Shown here piece after piece: positions 7,277 to 58,700 of a stretch of 64,000 nucleotides of DNA. This DNA is from Acidobacteriota bacterium (GTDB lineage Bacteria; Acidobacteriota; Terriglobia; Versatilivoradales; Versatilivoraceae). The notes beneath the pieces are model-generated. The model saw nothing but the letters and a program-made list of their open reading frames with translations, had not been told where the DNA came from and did no database searches. Position 1 is the stretch's first letter, and every line of letters starts with the position of its first letter. The position numbers and the translations under genes are program-made. Location: the NCBI GenBank assembly GCA_022826755.1, contig JAJDUG010000064.1, forward strand, positions 62,001-126,000. The letters run 5' to 3'.

Positions 7277-7625
7277 TGGAAAGGCTCCACGACACCAGTT
7301 GGCGAGGGCCGGCTGGGAACGACCGCTACCGGAGAACCGTCCGCGGCAGCCCCTCGGATTGCAAGGGAGAGTCCTCTTTTCTCCGGGGAACTACCCTTCC
7401 CCGCGAAGCCGGGCACCTATGATACAGGGCTGGCAGCATCTGTCGGAACCAATTCTTGGCGGGGCGCCAGTCGACCGTCCGCGGAACTTGGCGCAGGGTG
7501 AGAGATCAGGTATGCTTCCAACTCTGAATTTCTGTGGTTGGCCGGCTTCGGAGACCATTCTTCAAGAACATCCGGCAAGCCATTGGACCGACTCCCTGTC
7601 CAACCGCGGACCCTTGCAACGAGCC
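7277..7625. other. Divergent intergenic region, moeA / methyltransferase
   Basis: This 349-bp stretch separates moeA from the methyltransferase gene, which run in opposite directions, so it should hold both promoters. I see no clear repeat, terminator or conserved element. The frame of the downstream gene stays open through it, with an alternative ATG at 7512, but third-position GC there is low compared with the gene body. Confidence 0.5.
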
Positions 7626-15079: not shown

Positions 15080-15381
15080 GATACTTGAGGCTTGCAAACG
15101 GCCCCTTGCCCTATTCCTGGGCGTGATGTAAATCATGGTCCAGGTTTGTTGTGTGGATGATGGCCCACCCGGGAACACGGGCGTCCCGCCCGCACATGGC
15201 CTGGCGCAGCCTTGGCCATCGCCGCCGCTGGGATGGAACGGTAACGGGGCCTTGCCTTTCATTCGGACTGGCCCATGCCGTTCACGCCGGCAGGGTGGCT
15301 GCCTGCCGGCAACCTTGCGCCGACGCTCCACCACCTCCAGCCAGAAATAAGGTTGCGGGCGAGACGCCCGCGTTCCCGGGG
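15078..15381 (+). repeat. R1 dispersed repeat, copy 1
   Basis: About 304 bp. It opens GTGATACTTGAGGCTTGCAA, contains the inverted-terminal-like GC palindrome pair (CGGGCGTCCCGCCCGC near the left, GGGCGAGACGCCCGCGTTCC near the right) and the inner constant stretch GGGGCCTTGCCTTTCATTCG. It is directly followed by copy 2. Confidence 0.85.
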
Positions 15382-24890: not shown

Positions 24891-25075
24891 GGCGTCTTGC
24901 CGGAGCGCCTCACCGGCAGTTAGCTACGCAATCAAAATGCGGGGCGGCAGCTATTTGAAACACACGAAAAAAGAGTGATCCACCAAGGGTGACGGCCCTG
25001 CCGCATGGGCAGGGCTACGGCCCGACAAGCCGGCGCGTGCCCCCCCGAGGAGCAACAGGGATGGGAGGAGGCGCC

Positions 25076-25295
25076 CCCCGGGAGCGCGGGCGTCCCGCCC
25101 GCATGCTATCCCGTTGCGTGCCGCTCAGTTTCCCTGCGATGCGGCACCCGGCCGCCCTGCCGGCGGGAACGGCATGGGCCCGGCCGAAGCAGAGCCCTGG
25201 CCCCGTTGCCGGTCGTCCCGGGTGGAGGAGTTGGCCGAGGCTGTGCCAAGACTGGTGCGGGCGGGACGCCCGCGCTCCCGGGTGGGCTTCATCCC
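25076..25295 (-). repeat. R1 dispersed repeat, copy 3, shorter and diverged
   Basis: Bounded by CGGGAGCGCGGGCGTCCCGC on the left and GGGCGGGACGCCCGCGCTCC on the right. The interior aligns to R1 copies only when reverse-complemented (for example GGCCCATGCCGTTCCCGCCG on the minus strand), showing that the copy is inverted. Confidence 0.7.
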
Positions 25296-37371: not shown

Positions 37372-37751
37372 GAGTTATCAACCCCTTCCGGTTTCAGTGT
37401 CCCGACTGCGCATCCAACGACGCCACGCCAGCACCTTGGCTGGAACCGATTTTCCGGCGGCGGTCGTGCAGGCGATGAAGACAGGGTGATCGCAACGGCT
37501 TCTGTGCTCGTCGCGCGCGGGCTGCCCACTATAGCCGCAAGCAAGATGAGGGGTCAATGGCCGGGCGGCCGTCTACGCTACGCATCCAACCGGCAGAGGG
37601 ACCATGGGAAGCCCCGGCTTGCCGGCGAGTTCTCCCCTGCCCCCTCCTGCCCTCCGAGGTTGCCAATTCCCGAAAAGGCTGTACCATGGAATGGATCGCT
37701 CACCCAGTCCCCCAACCGAGGGATTTCCTTCCCTCTCCCAAGAGTCCTGTC
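37372..37751. other. Intergenic region, no feature recognised
   Basis: 380 bp between the divergent M24 gene and the next plus-strand gene. I see no repeat from the families described here, no hairpin and no clear promoter. The frame of the downstream gene is open through part of it (alternative ATG 37686). Confidence 0.5.
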
Positions 37752-38150
37752 ATGCGATACCTGGTCACCGCACGACTCAAGCCCGACCGGCGACGCTCTC
37801 TCCTTGAGGCCATCGAGGACAGGTCCCTGGGCCGGGGATCGGTGGCTGGAGGGGAATACCTCCGAAACATGGATCAGGCTCGCAGCACGGCTGACGGTCG
37901 GGCCCGCTGGGTCGAAGTCTGCTTCTGCCCGACGCCTCTGCTGGAGGAACGACCCTACTGGGAGGAGTATTTCGACCTGGAGCGGGTACAGGACGCCCAC
38001 GACCGCAACCGCTGCCGGGACCTCAACGGCCAGGAGCCCTGGGCCTGCACCGACTGTGACTGCACCGAACGGTTGGAGAAGAAGTTGAAGGCCCGGGGAC
38101 GATCCTTCCTGAGGCAGCTCCGCAAGCAGAATGAGGAAGATCCCGTCTGA
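37752..38150 (+). CDS. Conserved cysteine-rich small protein of unknown function
   Basis: A 132-residue protein beginning MRYLVTARLKPDRRRSLLEA. Conserved-looking features are GSVAGGEYLRNMDQAR, RWVEVCFCPTPLLEERPYWEEYFDLERVQDAH and a terminal cluster WACTDCDCTERLE, with five cysteines in short spacing that could bind metal. The N-terminal half resembles small alpha/beta ferredoxin-like domains, but I cannot name the family. Start: ATG 37752 gives the clean N-terminus; ATG 37686 (AAAGG eight bases upstream) would add 22 residues. It is a single gene on the plus strand. Confidence 0.7.
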   Translation: MRYLVTARLKPDRRRSLLEAIEDRSLGRGSVAGGEYLRNMDQARSTADGRARWVEVCFCPTPLLEERPYWEEYFDLERVQDAHDRNRCRDLNGQEPWACTDCDCTERLEKKLKARGRSFLRQLRKQNEEDPV

Positions 38151-38320
38151 AGGACCTGCCTATCCTTGGAAAGTTAAATGAGGTGTTGGCGGCTTTCATT
38201 GAAATTTGGCCCAAGTATCGCCCTCCCAGCAATTACGCCCATGGCGGTAAGTGCTGTCGTGGCCGCCAACGAAAGATCCCCCTTCGTTTTCAGACATCAA
38301 TGTTTTCCTTTCTGCTCCGG

Positions 38321-38722
38321 CTAGCGCACGAGCGCGTGCAACGACACTGCCACGTCTGCGGCCCCGTGCAGGACCGCATTGTCCAGAGTAGCCAAAGGAA
38401 CGCCCAGGGTGCGAGCGAGCGCGACGAACTCGGCATCGTAGGCAGTTAGACCGCACTCCAGCGCGATATCGATCACTTGGTGCCCGGACACGCTCGCGAT
38501 GCGGTCTCCCAGAACGACAGCGGCATCATCGCTCATTGCTTTGGCCTGCTCCGAGGTTACCGTGCCCCGGCGCACGAATCCGATCAGGACATTATGCAAC
38601 TCACTCATGAGGATACTGGGGGCCGCCCACTCGGTCTCCCGCTCGAACAACCTGGTCGCGCCGGCCCCGTCTGCTCCGCCCACTACCAGACGAACCATCA
38701 CATTCGTGTCAACTACGATCAT
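38321..38722 (-). CDS. PIN-domain toxin, VapC/FitB-like (module 1)
   Basis: PIN-domain ribonuclease toxin, 133 residues. The acidic metal-binding residues are in VVDTNVMVRL (Asp5), SELHNVL (Glu), LTAYDAEFVALA (Asp) and ATLDNAV (Asp), and the order is canonical, so it is likely active. Its ATG (38722) overlaps the antitoxin stop by four bases (ATGA), typical of coupled toxin-antitoxin operons. This is the first of three toxin-antitoxin modules in 38.3-40.8 kb. Confidence 0.92.
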   Translation of the reverse strand: MIVVDTNVMVRLVVGGADGAGATRLFERETEWAAPSILMSELHNVLIGFVRRGTVTSEQAKAMSDDAAVVLGDRIASVSGHQVIDIALECGLTAYDAEFVALARTLGVPLATLDNAVLHGAADVAVSLHALVR

Positions 38723-38961
38723 GGTCGTCCCGTGTTCCGCATCTCACGTAGCGTGTCTTCACTGAGATCAACCGGTCCGAGTTTCTCGTTTCGTTTCCGG
38801 ATGCGATCCAGGAGGGCCTGCGGGTCTACCGGTTCGGGGCTGACCGACTCCGTTAACCTCGCGAGGATCTCTCCATTCAGGCTGCGGTGGTTCCGACTCG
38901 CGGATGACTTGAGCGCCCGGTGCAGGGGAGCGGGGATTCCACGAAGCGCTATGTCTGGCAT
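38719..38961 (-). CDS. Ribbon-helix-helix antitoxin, FitA/Arc-like (module 1)
   Basis: An 80-residue antitoxin with an N-terminal ribbon-helix-helix (MPDIALRGIPAPLHRALKSSASRNHRSLNGEILARL), the FitA-type DNA-binding fold, and a C-terminal toxin-binding tail (RIRKRNEKLGPVDLSEDTLREM). ATG 38961 begins the conserved block. A 15-bp palindromic operator sits 24 bp upstream. The gene overlaps its toxin. Confidence 0.9.
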   Translation of the reverse strand: MPDIALRGIPAPLHRALKSSASRNHRSLNGEILARLTESVSPEPVDPQALLDRIRKRNEKLGPVDLSEDTLREMRNTGRP

Positions 38962-38984
38962 ATTGGCCTCCTTCGGCAAGTGTA

Positions 38985-38999
38985 ATATCATAATGATAT
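38985..38999. promoter_or_regulatory. Palindromic operator of toxin-antitoxin module 1
   Basis: ATATCATAATGATAT is a perfect palindrome around a central A, 24 bp upstream of the antitoxin ATG. Autoregulation by the ribbon-helix-helix protein is expected in this family. Confidence 0.6.
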
Positions 39000-39231
39000 C
39001 ATAAAAGTGTCAAGCAGCACAATGGTGCGGCGACTTGGGGGTAGGAACTACCCACGTATCGCCTGCTTGGCCAAGCCGGGGATTTTTGTTCCAGCGAAGG
39101 AGAGGGGATCGGGTGAAGGAGAGCGGATCAGATTCCAATGCCGACGCAAAATCCAGAGCAGATCCCAACGGTGCTGAGACAGATCGAGGTGGCGGCGGCC
39201 ATGGCGGATGTGTTTCAGGTCGCCTTCGGCT

Positions 39232-39340
39232 AAGGTGTACCGTTTGAGCAGCGAAGGCTCATCAGTCGACTCAAGGACGAGTTCGGCAGGCGGCACGTGA
39301 AGGTTCGTGGCCCTTGGCAAGGTGATGTGCCAACTTGATG
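39232..39340 (+). pseudogene. Possible DDE-transposase C-terminal fragment
   Basis: About 35 codons (ISRLKDEFGRRHVKVRG) resemble the terminal region of IS4/IS5-type transposases. The reading frame has a stop just before it and tandem stops after it. Low confidence, from memory of the motif only. Confidence 0.3.
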
Positions 39341-39391
39341 ATGAGTAAGCCAGACTGCCAAACAACGTTTGCAGCCATCTTCCGAATAATG

Positions 39392-39418
39392 ATATCGTTT
39401 TCTCACATTAGTGATATC
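39392..39418. promoter_or_regulatory. Repeated GATATCG sites before module 2
   Basis: TGATATCG occurs at about 39392 and, as GTGATATCGG, at about 39411 just before the ribosome-binding site. The half-site matches the TGATAT of the module 1 palindrome, so the two antitoxins may bind similar DNA. Confidence 0.45.
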
Positions 39419-39428
39419 GGAGGAATTC

Positions 39429-39677
39429 ATGAGCAAAGTGCTTGTCAGAACTGTGATCAGCCTGGATGACGAACAGAAGGCATGGCTGGACCACCAGGCT
39501 GCGTTGCGCCGCGTTTCCATGGCCTCGCTGATCCGCCAGGCGGTACGCGAATTTCGGATTCGGGAACAGCGCGGCTCGGCTGCCTCGTTTGAAGAGGTGC
39601 TCAAAACTACGGCAGGCATCTGGCAGGCCGGGGACGGACTCGAGTATCAGCAGCGTATTCGCAAGGAATGGCGTTAA
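39429..39677 (+). CDS. Ribbon-helix-helix antitoxin, CopG/VapB-like (module 2)
   Basis: An 82-residue antitoxin; MSKVLVRTVISLDDEQKAWL is the beta strand and first helix, followed by LRRVSMASLIRQAVREF, a typical ribbon-helix-helix. ATG 39429 has GGAGGA upstream, an excellent ribosome-binding site. The gene ends three bases before its toxin. Confidence 0.88.
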   Translation: MSKVLVRTVISLDDEQKAWLDHQAALRRVSMASLIRQAVREFRIREQRGSAASFEEVLKTTAGIWQAGDGLEYQQRIRKEWR

Positions 39678-39680
39678 GGG

Positions 39681-40046
39681 ATGTCCAGATATCTACTCGA
39701 CTCGGTCATCGTCATCGACCACTTTAACGGCGTTGAGGCGGCGACGGAATTTCTTGCCACCCACGGGCGCGATTGCGTGATTTCCGTCATTACCCGTGCG
39801 GAGACGCTTGCCGGATTCCCCGCGACATCGGAGCCCTTGGCCCGGGTACTACTGGACAAATTTGCGACGCTGCCCGTAACCGTCGAAGTCGCCGATACAG
39901 CCGCACGATTGAGGCGCGCCCATCGCTGGAAACTTCCGGATGCGATTCAGGCGGCTTTCGCCATTCAGGAAGGGCTCACATTGGTCACGCGAAACACCCG
40001 GGACTTCAAGGGCGGAGGCCCGACCACGGTGGAAACTCCGTATTAG
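39681..40046 (+). CDS. PIN-domain toxin, VapC-like (module 2)
   Basis: A 121-residue PIN ribonuclease. MSRYLLDSVIVIDHFNG contains the N-terminal catalytic Asp7; further acidic residues are ITRAETLAG (Glu), LPDAIQAAFA (Asp) and TRNTRDF, so all ligands of a functional PIN domain are present. It follows the antitoxin with a three-base gap. Confidence 0.92.
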   Translation: MSRYLLDSVIVIDHFNGVEAATEFLATHGRDCVISVITRAETLAGFPATSEPLARVLLDKFATLPVTVEVADTAARLRRAHRWKLPDAIQAAFAIQEGLTLVTRNTRDFKGGGPTTVETPY

Positions 40047-40080
40047 ACACCGATCCTCTCAAAGGGAAGCATCCTGCCCC

Positions 40081-40191
40081 ATGAATACCGCCCGCATCGT
40101 CTCCACAGCCCGGAGTTTCTGCACCACTCTAAGCGATGACTGCGTGATGTATGCCGGATGCAGTTATGCTTTACCACTTGAGCCCAAGTAA
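40081..40191 (+). pseudogene. Fragment of type I restriction methyltransferase HsdM N-terminus
   Basis: The 36-residue frame MNTARIVSTARSFCTTLSDD then CVMYAGCSY begins exactly like HsdM proteins (MNTARIVSK.W.FC..LRDDGV.YGDY). Only the N-terminus is left before a stop; the rest of hsdM, hsdS and hsdR are absent. It lies between modules 2 and 3 and indicates that a restriction system was once present here. Confidence 0.6.
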
Positions 40192-40239
40192 AGCAATCGT
40201 CACTATTCCTGGGTCGACGAGCAAAGTTCATGGGAGTTG

Positions 40240-40479
40240 ATGATGCTCCGAATCAGCGCCAAGCACCAACTCACGCTTCCGGCCAGCCAGTGCCGCTTGG
40301 CCGGTATGAAGCCGGGTGACAAATGTCGGACTTTCGTCGCCGACGGTCGCATTACGATTATTCGCCAACAGCCAGGAAGCGCCTGGGGATGTCTGGCTCA
40401 CCTTCGAGCGGACGAGACGGTCTCCGATGTAGAGTCGCGCCAACATTCAATGAAAACGAAGCGGGAACACCAACCTTGA
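40240..40479 (+). CDS. AbrB/SpoVT-type antitoxin (module 3)
   Basis: A 79-residue swapped-hairpin antitoxin: MMLRISAKHQLTLPASQCRL and the segment MKPGDKCRTFVADGRITIIR match the AbrB/SpoVT beta-strand fold that partners many VapC toxins. ATG 40240 or 40243 follows GGGAG. Its TGA stop overlaps the toxin TTG start. Confidence 0.8.
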   Translation: MMLRISAKHQLTLPASQCRLAGMKPGDKCRTFVADGRITIIRQQPGSAWGCLAHLRADETVSDVESRQHSMKTKREHQP

Positions 40480-40730
40480 TTGCTTTGGACACCAACGTAC
40501 TGCTCGGCTATCTCCTGAGAGATGACGAAGCGCAGGCTGAAAGGTCGCGGCGCGTTCTTGAACCCGACGAGCGTATTCTCATTACGGATGTCGTATTGGC
40601 GGAGTCGGTGTGGACAATGATCGGGCGCCGCTATCGCGCAACCAGGGTTGACGTGACCACTGCCGTGGAAAGGCTTCTGCAAGAACCCACCGTGCGCTTT
40701 TTCTTAGGACGGCAATTCGAGAGGCATTAG
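40476..40730 (+). pseudogene. Truncated VapC-type PIN toxin (module 3)
   Basis: Starts with TTG 40476, overlapping the antitoxin stop. The 84 residues have LIALDTNVLLGYLLRDDEAQAE and LAESVWTMIG, the first half of a PIN domain with two catalytic acidic positions, but stop before the second half that would supply the remaining ligands (normal size about 130). The continuation in other frames has no PIN-like residues. It is likely inactive. Confidence 0.7.
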
Positions 40731-40833
40731 CAGAAGCTACGGGAGAGGAGGATTACACTACTTCCAGAAGAAAGAATCGAGCATTTCAGAGCGCCACAAT
40801 ACGCAAAGTCCTCATATAGCCGGACAAAAATAG

Positions 40834-40927
40834 TGGCGGAGAGGGCGGGATTCGAACCCGCGTGGGAGCGACTAACCCCCTAACCGCTTTCGAGGCGGCC
40901 CCGTTATGACCACTTCGGTACCTCTCC
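40834..40927 (-). tRNA. tRNA-Ser (anticodon CGA)
   Basis: 94 nt including encoded CCA. Acceptor GGAGAGG pairs with CCTCTCC, followed by the discriminator G; there is a long serine-type variable arm and the T-loop GGTTCGAATCC. The anticodon loop is CTCGAAA, giving CGA. The toxin-antitoxin island lies directly at its 3' side, where integrative elements usually insert. Confidence 0.95.
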
Positions 40928-43951: not shown

Positions 43952-44322
43952 TCCGCGTGACGACCGGCGAGGCGAGACTGTCTTTCGTCATGCGACCCCA
44001 TCTTGTAACATATCTGCCCCGGCGGGATCAAATCGCGGCCGGCGGCGGGCTGCACAACATGACTACGATCCCGGGGACTATTGGCGGTGTTCTCTTCAAG
44101 GAACCGGGAATATTACCCGTACACCCAACAGGTTCAGGAACAAGGATGCGGGCGGGACGCCCGCGCTCCCGGGTGGGGCGCCAGAAAGACAGCAAGGCGC
44201 ACAACAGCCGAGAGCGGGACGCCCGCGCTCCCGGGTGGTGACCCGCGTTCCGGGCTGTCCGGAGTCTCACGGCACACTCATTTCAACCCGTCTTCAGCAC
44301 ACTTTCCCTAGCGGAGGCCACC
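43952..44322. other. Intergenic region with GC palindrome pair
   Basis: 371 bp upstream of the nitrilase-family gene, including two copies of the R1 edge palindrome (44147-44240). Nothing else recognised. Confidence 0.6.
44147..44240. repeat. Isolated pair of R1 edge palindromes
   Basis: GCGGGCGGGACGCCCGCGCT with CCCGGGTGGGG, then about 36 bases later GCGGGACGCCCGCGCTCCCG with GGTGG. Only the GC-rich edge of R1 is present, in direct orientation, without the R1 interior. Confidence 0.75.
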
Positions 44323-58371: not shown

Positions 58372-58700
58372 TACATGAGGCTTGCAAACGGCGCCCTGCC
58401 CGATTCCTGGGCGTGATGTAAATCATGTTCCCGGTTTGTTGGGTGGATGATGGCCCACCCGGGAACGCGGGCGTCCCGCCCGCACATTAGCCCGGCACAG
58501 CCTTGGCCGACTGCGCCGCTGGGATGGAAAGGTAACGGGGCCTTGCCTTTCATTCGGACTGGCCATCGCCGTTCACGCCGAAAGGCTGGCTGCCAGCCCA
58601 CACGGTCGCAGCAACGCTCCGCGACCTCCACCACGAAATACGGTTGGGGGCGGGACGCCCGCGTTCCCGGGGGCACTCCCCTCAAGGGGGAGTGATTCTT
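58362..58700 (+). repeat. R1 dispersed repeat, copy 4
   Basis: About 335 bp, opening GGGGGAGTGATACATGAGGC (the same edge as copy 1) and containing TAACGGGGCCTTGCCTTTCA and the GC palindromes (CGGGCGTCCCGCCCGC and GGGCGGGACGCCCGCGTTCC). It also has the terminal palindrome at 58675-58693. It overlaps the end of the ornithine cyclodeaminase-like gene. Confidence 0.85.
58675..58693. repeat. Palindrome at the right edge of R1 copy 4
   Basis: ACTCCCCTCAAGGGGGAGT, near-identical to 15060-15079. Confidence 0.7.

Follow-up and report, generated by a model that had tools for sequence, protein, structure and literature searches.

What is the short stretch of DNA that separates a conserved gene from tRNA-Ser(CGA) in an uncultured acidobacterium, and how did it come to lie there? 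The locus belongs to contig C68 of a 4.6-Mb uncultured Acidobacteriota genome (81 contigs), and we analysed it within a 64,000-nucleotide stretch of that contig, here called the window. A first-pass annotation had described it as the remains of an integrated defence island. That description is supported by an integration hotspot, fragments of a restriction-modification (RM) system and intact toxin–antitoxin (TA) operons, yet a duplicated attachment site is absent and the DNA is a mosaic of several events. Positions 38151-40833 are, with high probability, what erosion has left of DNA occupying an integration hotspot at the tRNA-Ser(CGA) 3′ end, in which the RM genes have decayed and the TA operons have been kept. 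The histories of FitAB and VapBC differ within this mosaic, which need not derive from a single decayed element. An anti-phage integration hotspot is thereby identified at tRNA-Ser(CGA) in an uncultured genus of Acidobacteriota.

From left to right, the segment holds the FitB and FitA genes on the minus strand and then, all on the plus strand, a probable hsdR start, the C-terminal fragment of a transposase gene, VapB, VapC, the start of hsdM, an AbrB-like antitoxin and a cut PIN toxin (Table 1). Its base composition sets it apart, as the first-pass annotation had stated in calling it AT-richer than its surroundings: the GC content is the minimum among all 2,683-bp windows of the 64 kb (outside mean 62.2%, sd 1.6). 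The same annotation placed the tRNA gene on the side from which such elements usually integrate; tRNA-Ser(CGA), being on the minus strand, turns its 3′ end towards the segment.

Table 1. Features of the locus, in window coordinates except for the last row, which gives positions in loci of relatives
Feature	Coordinates	Strand	Evidence or remark
Conserved left-flank gene, syntenic boundary of the hotspot	37557..38150	+	No Pfam hit; matched in G001, G003-G006
Variable segment (occupied integration site)	38151..40833		GC 56.9%; other DNA here in genus relatives
FitB-like PIN-domain toxin, 133 aa, intact	38321..38722	-	Pfam PIN E=3e-8; dN/dS about 0.2-0.4 against relatives
FitA-like ribbon-helix-helix (RHH) antitoxin	38719..38961	-	Pfam FitA-like_RHH E=1.5e-7
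Palindrome ATATCATAATGATAT, likely FitAB operator	38985..38999		Near-identical 5′ of fitA in five genomes; farther upstream differs
Probable hsdR start fragment (MPTQNPEQIP)	39138..39167	+	8/9 residues as in G293 HsdR start
DDE transposase gene, C-terminal fragment, frameshifted	about 39256..39340	+	~80% DNA match to multi-copy genes of G000, G001
Two TGATATCG half-sites, likely VapBC operator	39390..39419		Upstream of vapB; conserved in G000, G001, G004, G006
VapB-like RHH (CopG-type) antitoxin, 82 aa, intact	39429..39677	+	Pfam RHH_1 E=2.2e-6
VapC-like PIN-domain toxin, 121 aa, intact	39681..40046	+	Pfam PIN E=1e-13
hsdM N-terminal fragment (type I RM methyltransferase start)	40081..40147	+	Same DNA starts the 500-aa HsdM of G004
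AbrB-like antitoxin, frame open	40240..40479	+	85% aa identity to G001 copy adjoining hsdR; TIGR01439 weak
Truncated PIN toxin, C-terminal half missing	40476..40730	+	Cut past about residue 75; homologous as far as 40700
tRNA-Ser(CGA), integration target	40834..40927	-	ARAGORN; 3′ end at 40834, breakpoint in genus relatives
Amidohydrolase and ZIP metal transporter, hotspot neighbours	L053 4211-5929 and 6279-7118; L058 2325-3167		

The two complete TA pairs that had been listed, one FitAB-like and one VapBC-like, are both confirmed, with intact frames and significant Pfam matches for all four proteins. In each, the RHH antitoxin gene lies upstream of and adjoins the PIN toxin gene. The likely start of fitA is at 38961, where upstream alignment places it after an AGGAGG site, although the open frame reaches 38991. 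FitB residues 2-117 align to PDB 2fe1 and VapC residues 5-121 to the VapC of PDB 7by2 (E=6e-13), the catalytic residues of both having been read by eye only. FitAB copies are homologous throughout the operon and for some 60 bp further upstream, a stretch that contains the palindrome ATATCATAATGATAT; VapBC copies have two TGATATC half-sites in common, which are nearly kept in copies from Binatia, Desulfurellaceae and Gammaproteobacteria and absent from G002. Antitoxin–toxin order, RHH and PIN domains and a presumptive palindromic or repeated operator upstream are all as in the type II systems VapBC and FitAB, a likeness known here from the genes, and the PIN proteins of the window score below the NCBIfam VapC equivalog cut-off. 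PADLOC returned no match for the TA proteins. In the families VapBC and FitAB, the antitoxin acts as a dimer, which binds the operator and blocks the active site of the PIN enzyme, a metal-dependent RNase.

The third pair had been reported with a truncated toxin, and the truncation is real, since its PIN protein matches the 133-aa toxin of G001 at residues 1-75 only. Since the C-terminal half of its PIN domain is gone, this toxin leaves its antitoxin an orphan. The AbrB-like match itself is the weakest profile call of the segment (TIGR01439, E=0.028, below cut-off), and the AbrB identity is taken from intact homologous AbrB/PIN pairs in G001 and a Binatia genome. A separate arrangement of antitoxin genes was seen in G002 (contig C454, L046 1139-2217), where FitA-like, AbrB-like and VapB-like antitoxin genes stand in a row before the start of an hsdM; none of the three has a complete toxin, and the row, in a fragmented metagenome-assembled genome (MAG), is possibly an antitoxin-only array.

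The reported hsdM N-terminal fragment corresponds to the beginning of a 500-aa HsdM in G004 that carries the domains N6_Mtase and HsdM_N, and at the protein level it also matches the start of the deleted hsdM found in a Binatia genome. What had been noted as a possible transposase end is indeed similar to multi-copy transposase genes (DDE_Tnp_1/DUF772) in their 3′ part. To these features we add the probable hsdR start: the best other match to MPTQNPEQI in the 64 kb reaches 5/9 residues, and an AtzG-like match at 39138-39233 (E=0.009, below cut-off) was dropped in its favour. Complete hsdR, hsdM and hsdS genes are absent from the window, in which the hsdR and hsdM starts alone are left.

The order of these remnants (hsdR′, vapBC, hsdM′) agrees with that of G004 and of a decayed Binatia copy. 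In G004, vapBC lies between hsdS and hsdM, and a second, partial hsdM start precedes vapBC; in the Binatia genome (L076/L149), the C-terminus of hsdR is followed by AbrB, PIN, VapB, VapC and an internally deleted hsdM; in G001, an hsdR remnant is followed by AbrB, PIN, VapB and VapC. Judged by this gene order, the vapBC of the window is one that has kept its hsd neighbours as stubs. The AbrB/PIN′ remnant lies on the opposite side of hsdM′ compared with the Binatia genome, so that at least one rearrangement is needed, and an event such as duplication plus deletion may have moved it. An integron had been considered, too, as sharp-ended modules, swapped order and a 137-bp repeat around the G004 VapBC suggested attC cassettes; it was rejected because the 137-bp repeat is the start of hsdM.

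That the site itself is a hotspot emerges from the relatives. Flank DNA was searched in the family, and the fetched loci were then compared by blastn, the genus genomes being in many contigs except for G001 (a single contig). In genus relatives, similarity to the right flank stops where tRNA-Ser ends on its 3′ side. Similarity to the left flank stops where the conserved left gene does, the matches ending at about 38117 (G001, G003, G004, G005) or at 38166 (G006); the left contig of G002 does not reach this gene, and the far side is unassembled there. The space between the flanks measures 2.7 kb in the window, 4.0 kb in G003 and 23 kb in G001, and at least 6.7 kb in G006, 15.6 kb in G004 and 13.4 kb in G005, whose contigs end inside it. 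Different cargoes, many of them anti-phage, lie between the tRNA-Ser 3′ end and the left gene. G004 carries a FitA/PIN pair, HsdR (broken frame), an HsdS-like frame (an open frame between hsdR and hsdM, called by eye and not by a profile), vapBC, HsdM and an Avs3a-like NTPase; G005 a FitA/PIN pair, type III Res and Mod and a P4-type integrase; G006 AbiU, a relaxase and an integrase fragment; and G001 efflux, permease and TonB genes together with decayed hsdR, AbrB/PIN and VapBC. Anti-phage cargo is thus represented by hsdM and hsdR fragments in the window and by RM, Avs3a and AbiU in relatives. The same TA genes in the same order with no sign of insertion were not found among the relatives, the FitAB-VapBC order being common only to the window and G006, with a different spacer.

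Two relatives bear on how the site is used. In G005, the integrase adjoins the 15-nt CGCCCTCTCCGCCAG, in which one further base is added to the 14 nt that end the tRNA gene; beyond this copy, the DNA is similar to that following the tRNA in G003. This G005 copy of CGCCCTCTCCGCCAG is likely attR, with G003 lacking that element; the G005 tRNA is on another contig, and so the full element is not assembled. In G008, which belongs to a different genus within the family, about 150 bp separate tRNA-Ser (end at 7233 of L065) from the left gene (end near 7392), and the two have the same convergent orientation. This arrangement is an empty site in one outgroup; 17 other class members with the left gene have no tRNA in the 1.5 kb fetched beside it, and no second case of this adjacency was found. 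The duplicated tRNA 3′ end that the first-pass annotation would have looked for near 38.2 kb has no copy in the window, where short matches to a possible att remnant occur at chance rate only. Nor does the segment hold a tyrosine integrase, which is intact in G005 and a fragment in G006. Given a window with neither integrase nor att duplicate, we infer the insertion from the relatives, and the segment is not an intact element.

These observations suggest the following history. Elements with P4-type tyrosine integrases would use the terminal ~14 nt of the tRNA gene for recombination, restore the tRNA in doing so and carry anti-phage cargo into the tRNA-Ser site. An hsdR-hsdS-vapBC-hsdM operon (type I RM) was probably inserted here, presumably by the same type of integrase, after which deletions and an IS insertion would have removed it except for gene starts, the integrase and attR being lost as well. 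The two intact TA operons persist, each with its own putative operator. Both are most likely ordinary type II systems, in which the RHH antitoxin would bind the operator and the PIN protein act as a ribonuclease: were the labile antitoxin to fall, the PIN enzyme would cleave RNA and growth would stop. Such action would make loss of a pair costly, a plausible reason for its retention, and may provide abortive defence.

The locus type is already known, given published defence hotspots at tRNA genes (PMC10121019) and a type I RM operon with an embedded TA system (PMC12255303), though we found no earlier description of such a locus in this genus. Among the defence hotspots of E. coli, 18 are tRNA loci, several of them used by P4-like satellites (PMC10121019). 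As in these and in Pseudomonas hotspots (PMC10250203, PMC12629846), variable anti-phage cargo occupies a fixed chromosomal site; here, however, the phylum is another, and the occupant is eroded and has lost its integrase. The RptR-RM-DarTG2 island of EPEC likewise has a TA pair between genes of one hsd operon (PMC12255303), yet DarTG2 lies there between hsdS and hsdR, whereas the PIN-type VapBC of G004 lies between hsdS and hsdM and the RM system of the window is in fragments. The locus can serve as a worked example of island erosion, a well-known principle, with RM genes reduced to start fragments and TA operons intact and exchanged.

The TA operons may instead have been gained singly, as small mobile or recombining units entering an intergenic site that was variable already, with no large defence element ever present in this lineage and the hsd sequences being short flanks of vapBC. 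We regard this as possible, albeit clearly the less probable account. The FitAB and VapBC blocks end sharply near the operon limits and also occur separately, FitAB in L067 and L068 and VapBC as a stand-alone operon in Binatia, Desulfurellaceae and Gammaproteobacteria MAGs. In G001 and G003, FitAB lies elsewhere in the chromosome, so it need not have arrived with the RM element. The two pairs are also unequal in divergence: between the window and G006, dS is 0.036 for VapB and 0.032 for VapC, and 0.077 for FitA and 0.098 for FitB. In the flanks, it is 0.31 for the left gene, 0.45 for the aminopeptidase-like gene, 0.24 for the AcsA-like gene and 0.22 for w42337. This difference (0.03-0.10 versus 0.22-0.45) points to recent exchange of the TA operons; dN/dS is below 1 in all comparisons (NG86), values that are rough for such short genes. 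Against a purely piecemeal gain, hsdR and hsdM fragments flank vapBC in operon order, as expected of an RM operon once present and then deleted, and large integrase-bearing cargo occupies the same site in relatives.

Exchange extends beyond the genus. Nearly the same VapBC operon occurs in Binatia, Desulfurellaceae and Acidobacteriota MAGs, which indicates that these genes cross phyla; dS of VapC between the window and the Binatia and Desulfurellaceae MAGs is 0.23-0.31, no more than that of core genes within the genus. We presume that these MAGs may share a sponge habitat. It is conceivable, if rather improbable, that VapBC (with AbrB/PIN) is a dedicated guard of a type I RM lineage, residing inside the hsd operon, punishing RM loss, crossing phyla and outliving its RM system when that decays, a pattern that the window, G001 and a Binatia genome each display. 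The idea that VapBC is an obligate component of the RM family was rejected: in other genomes, close hsdM relatives (83%, 73% and 70% identity) lack a neighbouring VapBC, and there are several solitary VapBC copies.

Ordinary intergenic decay, with frequent TA genes beside a tRNA by coincidence, would fit the missing att duplicate and the commonness of TA pairs in bacteria, but is very unlikely in view of a site that varies across the genus, that is empty in an outgroup and at which one relative has an integrase together with a copy of att. An assembly or binning artefact joining unrelated pieces is barely credible: the genome is in 81 contigs and several module junctions are unique to it, but G006 independently has left flank, FitAB, VapBC and hsdM start on one contig in the order of the window, and VapBC is joined to the hsdM start in G004 and a Binatia genome, too.

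Beyond the eroded occupant itself, several further features deserve mention. The Avs3a-like NTPase of G004 (L056 17847-19958; PADLOC, 1190 bits) runs off the contig end. In the genus, the hotspot is commonly accompanied by an amidohydrolase (in G003 and G005) and a ZIP metal transporter (in G001-G005); the window lacks both, and neither was seen in G006. A MITE-like element of roughly 270 bp with inverted ends of about 32 bp that begin GGGGACGTTGTTGAATTA is found in the hotspots of G001 (L051 5350-5620), G003 and G005 and is absent from the window. The window's own genome encodes, on contig C14 (G000:C14:33545-34699; L105/L150), an integrase 89% identical to that of the G005 hotspot. The 12 kb fetched there contain no tRNA and no copy of the 12-nt tRNA-Ser 3′ end; in all, the genome has 24 stretches that match this integrase. 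Finally, a dispersed repeat of 32-62 bp occurs in the window at 44143-44181, 25074-25135, 25256-25287, 58452-58484 and 15162-15194, and the same repeat lies beside FitAB in G001 (L067 5259-5325).
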